A stretch of DNA of 55,429 nucleotides from an uncultured Bacteroidales bacterium (GTDB taxonomy: Bacteria > Bacteroidota > Bacteroidia > Bacteroidales > UBA932). How positions within the stretch are numbered: position 1 is the stretch's first letter; every line of letters begins with the position of its first letter. The stretch is from NCBI GenBank assembly GCA_900320545.1, contig ONSU01000011.1, positions 1-55,429 on the forward strand, written 5' to 3'. Positions 21,055 through 55,429 of this stretch are shown piece after piece. A program made the translations under genes and the position numbers. Below the pieces are notes generated by a model. That model did not search any database and was not told the origin of the DNA. It saw only the letters and a list, made by a program, of their open reading frames with translations.

Positions 21055-21994
21055 AATCATCCTGATCGAAACCGCCACCTCGCTCTGCTCGGTCGGCCTT
21101 GCGGAAGACGGGGTCTGCACCCACTACAAAGAGAGCACGGAACCGCGCGCCCATGCGGCGATGACGGCCCCGTTCATCAAAGAGATCCTGGATGAAGCCG
21201 GGCTCCGCGTGACGGACTGCGACGCGGTCTGCGTCAGCAAAGGGCCGGGTTCCTACACCGGCCTCCGCGTCGGCAGTTCCACGGCGAAAGGGCTCGCCTT
21301 CGGAGCCGGCATCCCCCTCATCGCCCTCGGCACCCTCGACATCCTCGCCGCCCGGGGCCGCGCCGTACTTGACGCCCTCGCCGCTCAGCACCTCGCCACT
21401 CCCGACAGTACTCACGTCATTCCCGGCCCCGCAGACGTCATTCCCGGACCCTCCGATGTCATTTCCGGGCCCTCCGACGTCATTCCCAGACTTGTTCCAG
21501 GAATCTCCCCCGCCGCCATCATCCCGATGATCGACGCGCGGCGGATGGAGGTCTACGCCGCCGTCTTCTCCCCCTCCGGAGAGCAGCTCACCCCCACTGC
21601 GAGCCATATCATTACCGCAGAATCCTTCGCCGCCGAACGTGCCGCCGGCCCCGTCCTCTTCATCGGCGACGGCGCCCTCAAATGCCGCGAAGTGCTTGGA
21701 GGCGCAGCGCTTGCCACCGGCCCCCTGTCCGCCGGCCCGGCCGCCAACGCTCAGCCCGCCAGCCCGGCTCCCAACGTCCAAACTGCCGCCAGCCCGGCAC
21801 CCAACGTCCAGCCTGCCGGCCCGGCCGTCACCACGCCCTCGGCCTGGTTCCTCGGCGAATGCCCTCGAGCCTCCTCGATGGCCGCGCTCGCCGAGGCCGC
21901 CTTCCGCGCCGGCAACTTCGAAGACACCGCCTACTTCGAGCCCTTCTACCTCAAAGACTTCGTCGCAGCCCTCCCGTCCAGAAAACTGTTCTGA
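21047..21994 (+). CDS. tsaB: tRNA threonylcarbamoyladenosine biosynthesis protein TsaB, with repeat-derived insertions
   Basis: 315 residues, against about 230 in most Bacteroidetes. TsaB pairs with TsaD and TsaE to make t6A37 in ANN-decoding tRNAs. The N-terminal ASKHA-fold blocks are normal: ILIETATSLCSVGLAEDG, SKGPGSYTGLRVGSSTAKGLA, and after the first insertion IIPMIDARRMEVYAAVF. The extra length comes from two places. Residues about 123-153 are heptad-like DVIPGPS repeats, encoded by 21-nt tandem units that end in a copy of the interspersed CATTCCCGG palindrome (21414-21506). Residues about 225-265 are Ala/Pro-rich with a 30-nt direct repeat (SPAPNVQ, 21761-21820). Both fall between conserved blocks and keep the frame, so the protein is probably functional. 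Confidence 0.9.
   Translation: MARIILIETATSLCSVGLAEDGVCTHYKESTEPRAHAAMTAPFIKEILDEAGLRVTDCDAVCVSKGPGSYTGLRVGSSTAKGLAFGAGIPLIALGTLDILAARGRAVLDALAAQHLATPDSTHVIPGPADVIPGPSDVISGPSDVIPRLVPGISPAAIIPMIDARRMEVYAAVFSPSGEQLTPTASHIITAESFAAERAAGPVLFIGDGALKCREVLGGAALATGPLSAGPAANAQPASPAPNVQTAASPAPNVQPAGPAVTTPSAWFLGECPRASSMAALAEAAFRAGNFEDTAYFEPFYLKDFVAALPSRKLF
21414..21506 (+). repeat. 21-nt tandem repeats ending in an interspersed palindrome, inside tsaB
   Basis: Three 21-nt units beginning ACGTCATTCCCGG or a close variant (21414-21434, 21435-21455, 21456-21476) are followed by a longer palindromic unit, ACGTCATTCCCAGACTTG continuing to 21506. That last unit resembles the intergenic copy at 8334-8386. The units are multiples of 3 and keep the tsaB frame open. 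Confidence 0.8.
21761..21820 (+). repeat. 30-nt direct repeat (two copies) inside tsaB
   Basis: 21761-21790 and 21791-21820 differ at only a few positions and each encodes SPAPNVQ plus three residues. A degenerate third copy precedes them. This is a small coding minisatellite, separate from the 21-nt repeats upstream. Confidence 0.75.
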
Positions 21995-22008
21995 TCCGCG
22001 GAGGATTA

Positions 22009-22112
22009 GGGCGGAAACGCAGGAAAACGCCCGGAGTCTCACACCGGGAGCACACGATTGGGGCGGAAACGCAGGAAAACGCCCGGAGTCTCACCAAAGG
22101 AGCCCGGAGTCT
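22009..22112. repeat. Repeats of the GGGCGGAAAC / CGCCCGGAGTCT palindrome family
   Basis: Two near-identical copies of GGGCGGAAACGCAGG... CGCCCGGAGTCTCAC start at 22009 and 22061 (52 nt apart), and a third partial CCCGGAGTCTC lies at about 22102-22112. Each can fold through GGGCG/CGCCC. The same sequence forms the lnt terminator palindrome at 4809-4846. They lie between tsaB and a convergent gene and may act as terminators. Confidence 0.65.
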
Positions 22113-22134
22113 CGCCAAAGCCACCCGGCGCCGA

Positions 22135-53454: not shown

Positions 53455-53766
53455 TTAAGCGATAGCGTCGATGTGGATCTTGGTGAGCTTCTGGCGATGG
53501 CCATTGAGCGTCTGGTATCCTTTGCGACGGATTTTCTTGAATACGAGCACCTTCTTGGCCTTGGCGTCGTCGTCGATGACGGTCGCCTTCACCACGGCAC
53601 CCTCTACATAGGGGGATCCGACCTTGACCGCACCATCCTCGTCGATGAGCAGCACCTTGTCGAACGTAACAGCCTCTCCGTTCTTCGCGCTGAGGCGATT
53701 GACGAAGATTTCCATGCCAGCTTCTACCTTAAACTGCTGGCTTGCAATGTCTACGATTGCGTACAT
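53455..53766 (-). CDS. rplU: 50S ribosomal protein L21
   Basis: 103 residues: MYAIVDIASQQFKVEAGMEIFVNRL, KVLLIDEDGAVKVGSPYVEGAVVKATVI, FKKIRRKGYQTLNGHRQKLTKIHIDAI, the standard L21. It is first of the operon with a leader of about 90 nt. Confidence 0.97.
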   Translation of the reverse strand: MYAIVDIASQQFKVEAGMEIFVNRLSAKNGEAVTFDKVLLIDEDGAVKVGSPYVEGAVVKATVIDDDAKAKKVLVFKKIRRKGYQTLNGHRQKLTKIHIDAIA

Positions 53767-53860
53767 AAAAACAAAACCTGTTAAAGTTTGGAACCGTAAG
53801 CGGTCGCCTCCGGGGCGGCACTTCTCCTAAGCTTAGCGGTCATATCAAAATTTGGGACTG

Positions 53861-53890
53861 CAAAGATAGCAATTTTTTTCATTCCTCAAA
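53861..53890 (-). promoter_or_regulatory. Promoter of the rplU operon
   Basis: On the minus strand TTTG (53887-53890), an 18-nt spacer and TATCTTTG (53861-53868). The leader between it and rplU contains a CTAAGCTTAG palindrome and a GCCGCCCCGGAGGCG segment that could fold, perhaps for autoregulation by L21 (not shown). Confidence 0.65.
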
Positions 53891-53934
53891 AAATTATTTG
53901 TCAATATCTTCCCAAAAATTAGTTGTGTCCTTTC

Positions 53935-54317
53935 ACGCGGCAGCACCTCAGCCCCGAAATGTCGCCATATGGCTTTCTATGGGCGGAGTTAAATGTCGCC
54001 ATCCCCGGTCGGGGCCAGGCGTCCGCTATCAGTGTCCGTGGCCAAGGTGCTTCCACAGCATCCGCGAACTGGGTTAAGTCGCATTTCAGTCACAAAATGC
54101 TTCCATACCATTCCTGCGAGCGGGGTTAAGTCGCATTCCGGCCCCGAAACGCTGCCATACCGTTCCTGCGGGCGGGGTTAAGTCGCATTTCAGTCCCCAA
54201 ATGCTTCCATACCGTTCCTGCGGGCGGGGTTAAGCAGCATTTCAGCCACAAAATGCTCCCATACCGTTCCTGCGAGCAGGGTCAAGCCGCATTCCGGCCC
54301 CGAAACGCTGCCATATC
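53935..54317 (+). repeat. Left arm of a 52-nt tandem repeat array
   Basis: Four well-conserved 52-nt units begin GGGTTAAG at 54071, 54123, 54175 and 54227. A fifth unit begins at 54279 and is cut after its position 39. About three diverged units occupy 53935-54070. Each unit contains GCATTT...AAATGC (or GCATTCCGG...CCGAAACGC), CCATACCGTTCCTGCG and a GC-rich joint. 52 is not a multiple of 3, so the array is not coding. Confidence 0.9.
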
Positions 54318-54318
54318 C

Positions 54319-55176
54319 CTACAAGATATTATCCAGTTGGTAATCGTCCGTCGGGAGCAGACGGAGCAGTTGGGCCCGGGAGGAGCCGAAACGGTTGTAC
54401 ACTTTCCGGATCAGTTGAACTCTGGCTTTGGGATCCATTCTTTCCGGGGCCATCCCGCCGAAGGTTGTCCTGCAGATTTCCTGAATTCCCCGAATGACTT
54501 CTTCATCGGAATAGGGTTCGGAGATTTCTTCCCCGTGCGTGTCGTTCACGATGTCTTCCAGATTCCATTTTTTGAGCAGATTAAAAAACTGAATGGAAGA
54601 ATTCCCGAACATCTGCTCAGTAAATGCCGCGTCCACGAAACTTTCCGGAAGAATAAAGCCGTCCGGCGAAAGACGCATTTCACCCGGGACATCGTCCTTG
54701 GTCTTGAGAATCCGCATCCTTTCCCTCTTAGACAGCTGACTGACCGGCAGGCCTTGTCTTTCTATTCGGAGAAAATAGGCCGTCGTGCTGCACCAAGGAT
54801 ACGAAAAGGGACTGTCAATGCGCGCTTTATAGGCATTTCGGAGAATATAGGCGGCTTCCTGACAGAATGCTCTCCGGTCTTTAACTTCAAAAAGCCGATA
54901 TGTCAAATCGGCGGCGACAGATCGGTGGTATTTTTTCATCTGATACCGGCCAAGGCGCCTTTTCAAGCGAAGGAAAAACACGCGAATGGTCTTCTCGTCA
55001 CCTTTGAGAAGAATATGAAAATGATTGGACATCAAGCACATACAATATATCTTGATACCCATTGCGGCAGACAGTACGGCTATGCAGTTCCATAGGAAAA
55101 TATAGTCCTCGCTGTCCCGGCACAGCACATCGTGCTCGAGAGCACTGGTGCAAAGTTGATAGATGTTTTTGAACAT
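54319..55176 (-). CDS. Y1 (HUH) transposase of the REP-associated (RAYT-like) type
   Basis: 285 residues. The N-terminal Y1 transposase domain has YCMCLMSNHFHILLKGDEKTI with the HUH metal-binding pair (HFH), and the nucleophile helix EAAYILRNAYKARIDSPFSYPWCSTTAYF. The Tyr in AAYILRN is at the position of the catalytic Tyr in IS200/RAYT proteins. The C-terminus (ARVQLIRKVYNRFGSSRAQLLRLL) resembles a DnaA/Trp-repressor-type helix-turn-helix often found in stand-alone RAYTs. These enzymes nick single-stranded DNA at hairpins. The stop codon lies 1-2 nt from the repeat array on one side, and the ATG is 29 nt from it on the other. Its lower GC fits a mobile gene. No TnpB or other gene accompanies it. 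Confidence 0.88.
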   Translation of the reverse strand: MFKNIYQLCTSALEHDVLCRDSEDYIFLWNCIAVLSAAMGIKIYCMCLMSNHFHILLKGDEKTIRVFFLRLKRRLGRYQMKKYHRSVAADLTYRLFEVKDRRAFCQEAAYILRNAYKARIDSPFSYPWCSTTAYFLRIERQGLPVSQLSKRERMRILKTKDDVPGEMRLSPDGFILPESFVDAAFTEQMFGNSSIQFFNLLKKWNLEDIVNDTHGEEISEPYSDEEVIRGIQEICRTTFGGMAPERMDPKARVQLIRKVYNRFGSSRAQLLRLLPTDDYQLDNIL

Positions 55177-55205
55177 ATATTTAATGTATTTGTTGTTTCC
55201 AAAAT

Positions 55206-55429
55206 ATTCCTGCGGAAGGGGTTAAGTCGCATTTCAGCCCCAAAATGCTTCCATACCGTTTCCGCGGAAGGGGTTAAGTCGCATTCCGGCCCTCAAATGC
55301 TCCCATACCGTTTCTGCGAGCGGGGTTATGTCGCATTCCGGCCCTAAAATACTCCCATACCGTTCCTGCGGGCGGGGTTAAGTCGCATTTCAGCCCCCAA
55401 ATGCTTCCATACCGTTCCTGCGGGCGGGG
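55206..55429 (+). repeat. Right arm of the 52-nt tandem repeat array (continues past window)
   Basis: It resumes at unit position 40 (ATTCCTGCGG at 55206), then has full units at 55219, 55271, 55323 and 55375, and the start of another at 55427. Same orientation and sequence as the left arm. Together the two arms reconstruct one uninterrupted array if the 888-bp cassette 54318-55205 is removed. Confidence 0.9.

Follow-up and report, generated by a model that had tools for sequence, protein, structure and literature searches.

The window analysed here is a stretch of 55,429 nt (contig ONSU01000011.1) from an uncultured Bacteroidales bacterium. It ends in an array of 52-nt palindromic repeats, into which a gene for a Y1/HUH nuclease resembling the RAYTs (REP-associated tyrosine transposases; REP, repetitive extragenic palindromic) is set. 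Gene and array probably form a RAYT-REP element, in which a Y1/HUH nuclease gene, chromosomal and low in copy number, is combined with palindromic repeats of its own; these make up a multimer whose units follow one another head to tail at a pitch of 51-53 nt. The units have clear boundaries and the gene lies at one of them, the arrays are nearly private to their genome, a homologous site in a relative is empty, and the pitch recurs at many RAYT loci of the genus.

The RAYT-like gene and its repeat array

Tandem Repeats Finder detected a period of 52 at 54064-54315 (4.8 copies, 83% matches) and again at 55207-55429 (4.3 copies, 86% matches). Both arms share one direction and enclose a cassette of 888 bp (54318-55205, minus strand), which carries a single Y1/HUH gene (54319-55176, minus strand, 285 aa) with the HUH residues H52/H54 and the candidate catalytic tyrosine Y110. 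The arm 3′ of the gene (54058-54317, minus strand) comprises five 52-nt units, each made of a 38-nt imperfect palindrome (GGTATGG...CTTAACC) and a 14-nt spacer, while the arm 5′ of the gene (55206-55429, minus strand) holds four units and a partial spacer cut by the contig end. Read on the gene's strand, the 5′ arm closes with a complete 14-nt spacer at 55206 and the 3′ arm opens at unit position 1 at 54317. Thus, the cassette is placed exactly on a unit boundary, and its removal restores the 52-nt register across both arms. No target duplication is present at the cassette, and the stop codon of the gene is 1-2 nt from the 3′ arm. A first-pass annotation, made from the letters of the window, had described equally oriented 52-nt units on both sides of a RAYT-like Y1/HUH transposase gene, arms ending at 54317 and resuming at 55206, a period restored by excision of 888 bp and a stop codon 1-2 nt from the junction; the analysis confirmed this arrangement and supported the assignment of the gene. 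As the array reaches the contig end (55429), its visible length is only part of the whole. At the outer array end, decayed and out-of-register unit-like remains extend over 53936-54057 (minus strand), as computed for 53940-53970 and judged by eye for the remainder.

In total 64 units of this family, termed family A, were gathered from ten stretches of the window's genome, and 61 of them are different. The unit consists of the conserved 38-nt imperfect palindrome, with GGTATGG at one end, CTTAACC at the other and GCATTT/AAATGC inside, followed by the more variable 14-nt spacer. All 52 spacings between neighbours within arrays, not counting the cassette and the gap between two arrays on contig C44, are exactly 52 nt. 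Units within one array have a mean likeness of 83% (0.831 within versus 0.755 between arrays; the difference of 0.076 compares with at most 0.025 after shuffling of labels), and among the arrays examined there are higher-order periods of 104-156. Of ten array starts judged by eye, five coincide with [G/C]GTATGG, four are in the spacer-like sequence that precedes it and one has decayed; of ten array ends, five directly follow CTTAACC, two are in the next spacer and three cut into the palindrome. The array ends are therefore partly precise and partly ragged. The first units at L015:5096, L017:3165 and L020:3167 have a common deviant left half (GCATCAAAAAAGGCC-like) and may represent a distinct terminal unit. 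A CRISPR-like reading was ruled out, since the 14-nt spacers are variants of one sequence, and Rfam gave no match up to E 1 on 53700-55429.

A 15-nt core of the unit was found at 68 places in the genome with up to 2 mismatches, while the reversed control gave 0, and its occurrence is above chance. Well-matched units are present in the window and at ten other sites, one of these holding a single unit and another, the end of C44, perhaps being the same locus as the window. According to a simple listing of open reading frames (ORFs) the sites are intergenic, apart from one that overlaps an ORF end by 18 nt. No gene of the RAYT kind lies alongside any of the ten other sites. Three of the family A sites (L015:4966-5133, L018:3167-3744 and L019:3012-3351; one is a single unit) are located 55-90 nt 3′ of tRNA-Ala, tRNA-Phe and tRNA-Asn. 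A longer unit pattern with up to 3 mismatches was present in 1/400 genomes of the genus, namely the window's own; arrays of the unit that are common in relatives, which would have spoken against a link to the gene, were not encountered. Family A occurs in many copies in the genome of its RAYT and is species-specific, as cognate repeats are, and its 64 units are fewer than the >100 copies given for classical REPs in the account of Nunvar et al. 2010 (PMC2817692).

On contig C39 a 1,049-bp stretch (L020:2581-3629) carries three 52-nt arrays of unrelated sequence (families C, B and A) in a row. None of the six RAYTs found in the window's genome could be recognised as that of family C. The C39 array stretch is absent in G246, the closest relative among 300 sampled genomes (93% over the rplC region), where a single contig carries the two flanks, 2 nt apart. 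For six further sites (C25, C26a, C34, C37 and C44 twice) no repeat with a period near 52 was found in G246 beside the flanks, of which either one, or both on separate contigs, could be located; one of these contigs ends 34 nt past the match. The ends of C44 and C34 share 105 nt at 98.1%, the highest value of all array pairs, and may belong to one locus, although comM and rplU (gene names assigned by eye) adjoin other genes in G246.

RAYT relatives and the pitch of their repeats

The window protein has the fold of E. coli TnpA_REP (RAYT), which is a clearly better match than IS608; residues 197-285 were barely covered by the fold search. H52, H54 and Y110, the latter being the putative catalytic tyrosine, are invariant in 16/16 aligned members. 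The NCBIfam model NF047646 (REP_Tyr_transpos) matches 16/16 members at E ≤1, and the window protein scores 22.9 bits, below the curated cut-off of 80 bits. Matches to Pfam Y1_Tnp also occur in the family, with the window protein again under the curated cut-off. Six RAYTs were found in the window's genome (G000), i.e. the window gene and five paralogues, the nearest of which (contig C47) is 51% identical. A search with the window protein matched 52/101 genomes including its own, among them 51/60 relatives of the genus and 0/40 genomes from other families. With a 16-row profile (E ≤1e-12) 12/294 genomes of the order matched, two (both of the genus) over the whole profile and ten over the catalytic core only. 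A scan of named genomes gave 11 loci, including a homologue in Muribaculum sp. An289 that is full-length and 26% identical, and one homologue was found in Candidatus Cryptobacteroides faecigallinarum. Judging from these matches, the protein family reaches beyond the genus. The genus itself may be Cryptobacteroides, and the bacterium that carries the element may live in the gut. A close relative of the window gene in G246 (L172, contig C66) is broken into two frames.

The paralogue on C47 is also located between two arms of a 52-nt array, the sequence of which differs from family A. Therefore, a wider set of 95 loci was taken, comprising the window, the five paralogues and 89 loci from other species. 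Two of them (L212 and L218) were dropped for lack of a match with the window protein, as L178 had been earlier, and 93 were used; six named loci (L224-L229) were kept outside this set. In the 200 nt that follow the stop codon, 42/93 loci have a direct repeat with a lag of 50-54 (score ≥12), compared to 3/400 control windows (20 stretches of the same genomes) and 2/304 ends of ORFs of about 200 aa or more. When lags of 30-120 were allowed, 51/93 loci had a repeat signal just 3′ of the stop codon. The pitch was 50 nt in one, 51 nt in 12, 52 nt in 24 and 53 nt in four of these (41 in all at 50-53 nt), 74 nt in one and 82-85 nt in five; four others were at 33, 40, 103 and 109 nt. The controls for this range gave 15/1000 windows, seven of them at 51-52, 75 or 84 nt, which are possibly scattered cognate arrays.

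In the window, direct pairing of neighbouring units scores 89 and 114, and inverted pairing 7.5. Among the 93 loci inverted pairing of at least 14 was found in nine (control 2/400), six of which also show direct pairing; direct pairing of at least 12 was found in 42. In the window's own clade of seven proteins (support 99) a repeat of 52-53 nt is present in 7/7 loci, and in the six that were compared the stop codon is in or beside the first bases of the first unit. The first-pass annotation had offered as one option that the array served as a safe target. This is less likely, since the pitch and the junction at the stop codon recur in many loci, and its view that the array belongs with the gene is strengthened by the 41/93 loci and by unit families that are nearly private. 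Mapped on a tree of 91 proteins (two of the 93 were left out by length), the pitch changes six times and, by simple count, four of the six loci labelled 82-85 nt fall in one clade. The label of L085 is ambiguous, with 83 on one side and 52 on the other, and L073 has a 77-nt repeat that fits no whole number of helical turns. At L087 (genome G016) the RAYT is located between 74-nt arrays, and the same unit is present at several further places in that genome. Contig C50 of the window's genome has complex repeats of 52, 228 and 299 nt immediately behind a RAYT gene (L028:4903-6196), and in an uncultured Bacteroidales genome a RAYT homologue is followed by a 37-nt tandem repeat that is also visible as 75 (L227:3907-4114).

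Units of 14 families were searched in 18 genomes, which gave 203 matches; the following counts refer to the best of these, which were listed, and two matches in G017 are outside them. Ten of the 14 families match their own genome only, and two also match one genome with a close RAYT. The family of G033 also matches G049, the genome of a related family, and the family of G049 matches its own genome only. Eight of the 14 also occur away from their RAYT, on other contigs or far along the same one. Some RAYT loci are syntenic. L027 and L169 (G000 and G246) have both flanks in common, while L026, L050 and L171, from three species, have 2.5 kb upstream in common and a pitch of 52 in all three. Between L026 and L171 the likeness of the units does not exceed that of shuffles (0.42 versus a shuffle mean of 0.39), and between L026 and L050 it is slightly above it (0.52 versus 0.41). 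From these comparisons the unit sequence appears to turn over while the pitch stays, even between syntenic genes.

Two 52-nt units of family B, the family that flanks the paralogue on C47, are also present within the window (22004-22103, minus strand). Beside them the window carries a cluster of 21-, 27- and 30-nt repeats (21414-22128).

Proposed mechanism and competing explanations

The spacing of 51-53 nt shared by repeats of unlike sequence suggests that the protein sets the spacing. In a RAYT-REP element of this kind the protein would recognise the units as single strands, would cut at the unit edge beside GGTATGG or CTTAACC, and would join or copy whole units, so that arrays could grow, shrink and move as non-autonomous elements. 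This resembles the rolling-circle model proposed for bacterial interspersed mosaic elements (BIMEs) by Nunvar et al. 2010 (PMC2817692). The pitch might be set by the geometry or the subunit spacing of the protein on DNA. With 10.5 bp per turn, pitches of 51-53, 73-75 and 82-85 nt correspond roughly to 5, 7 and 8 turns, a suggestion drawn from few independent classes. More tentatively, and with rather more doubt than confidence, we propose that the RAYT works as a molecular ruler: units would be copied or joined in helical register only (51-53, 73-75 or 82-85 nt) whatever their sequence, and the pitch would be passed on together with the protein, even as the unit sequence changes. Recombination probably homogenises the arrays as well. 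Nicking, mobility and pitch-setting by the protein are inferred.

Several results weigh against the RAYT-REP element. The loci were picked from hit lists and not at random, and sister pairs are included. No 3′ repeat signal was found in 42/93 loci, and a 52-nt repeat is also missing from the 3′ flanks of all six named homologues kept outside this set (best lags 60, 82, 124, 75, 160 and 158, several being weak; two of the homologues have signals near 82 and 75 nt). An empty site with both flanks was seen only once. Among the matches listed, five of the 14 families occur only at their RAYT and one only 8 kb off. The raggedness of the array ends has to be added, and frequent movement of the gene is unlikely because some RAYT genes are syntenic between species. 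Shuffled sequences fold as well as single units do (z 0.03 to 1.28; three units, both strands), and stem covariation is not seen (349/366 pairs formed versus a shuffle mean of 349.7). In the inner stem of family A, on the gene's strand, G-T wobbles outnumber A-C by 45 to 5, but this bias is not general: strand-specific folding as a general rule failed with 39 to 52 over 16 other families, the stems of which were chosen automatically, several of them looking wrong.

Slippage or unequal recombination alone could expand such arrays, a RAYT having landed in or beside one by chance. The greater likeness of units within arrays than between them, the higher-order periods and the absence of a target duplication at the cassette agree with such a passive satellite, and local homogenisation may well act in addition. 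What it leaves unexplained is the pitch in 42/93 RAYT 3′ flanks versus 3/400 controls, the common pitch of sequence-unrelated families, and units nearly private to the genome of their RAYT, and as a sufficient explanation we regard it as unlikely. It also seems improbable to us that a host function (nucleoid organisation, termination, replication or segregation) uses the arrays as phased binding sites, with the RAYT as a domesticated DNA-binding protein without nuclease activity. The invariance of HUH and Tyr in 16/16 members is at odds with loss of the nuclease; moreover, one site is empty in the closest relative, no 52-nt array was found there beside the flanks of six others, and the unit sequences turn over. 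Nevertheless, a pitch near whole helical turns, syntenic genes, the C-terminal part barely covered by the fold search and the three sites 3′ of tRNA genes would suit phased sites. An active insertion sequence of the IS200/IS605 type, with ends repeated by chance, is very unlikely. It would account for the Y1 fold and for the Pfam Y1_Tnp matches, though the window protein is below the curated cut-off there. However, several near-identical gene-bearing copies were not found in the genome, the nearest paralogue being 51% identical, TnpA_REP is the clearly better fold match than IS608, and of the eleven sites with the unit ten lack a RAYT-like gene and one has it.

The field has yet to settle in which way RAYTs produce and spread REP clusters and whether the host benefits from them, and how. 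Genomes with several RAYTs, many of them with their own repeat family and one pitch, separate the sequence that is read from the spacing that is measured, and the genus offers dozens of natural enzyme-substrate pairs for direct tests. The arrays may also explain assembly breaks: it is within such arrays that the window and contig C44 break off.

Comparison with known RAYT systems

A close known counterpart is the RAYT (TnpA_REP) of E. coli with its REPtron and BIME-2. As described by Nunvar et al. 2010 (PMC2817692), the E. coli rayt has BIME-2 on both sides, and one third of RAYTs are directly associated with BIMEs. The statement in the first-pass annotation that RAYT genes are not embedded in long arrays was therefore too strong. 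Both systems have a Y1/HUH protein of the same fold, a gene flanked on both sides by clusters of cognate repeats, and species-specific copies scattered in the genome. According to the same source, REPs alternate in orientation in E. coli, whereas the units found here run head to tail with one pitch. The hairpin foot of family A also lacks the tetranucleotide GT[AG]G, its inner stem having GG[CAG]A there (by eye, one family). In the window's clade, moreover, the stop codon abuts the first unit or overlaps with it. RAYTs are expected to have inverted flanking REPs, whereas both arms in the window point in the same direction.

Two or more palindromic units at a set spacing recall REPINs (inverted REP doublets), but inverted pairing of neighbouring units is weak here; regular spacing is shared with BIMEs, but the alternating orientation is missing. 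We therefore speak of a variant and not of a canonical REPIN or BIME, since inverted flanking REPs and the GT[AG]G foot are absent and the protein scores below the curated cut-off. Subclass 2.6 of TnpA_Y1, or RAYT group 5, as described in PMC6006769, is similar in its occurrence in Bacteroidetes, in its NHxH motif and in the atypical secondary structures that flank its genes and recur at other places in the genome. Compared by motif and description, it differs in having the Y motif YIH[QN]NP and WQ, while the present family mostly has Y[IV]xxN as its Y motif and, by eye, no evident WQ. The words 'tandem', 'array' and 'direct repeat' are absent from the main text of that article. Tandemly reiterated REP clusters (GTAG/CGTC repeats) have been reported in PMC3733652, but in that account head-to-tail dimers are absent, under-represented or negligible in most genomes, and no shared pitch is apparent from it. 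No report of RAYT-associated, unidirectional head-to-tail arrays with a fixed pitch was found in the open-licence literature. Thus, the location of rayt genes inside REP clusters is already known, whereas unidirectional arrays of fixed pitch seem to be new.
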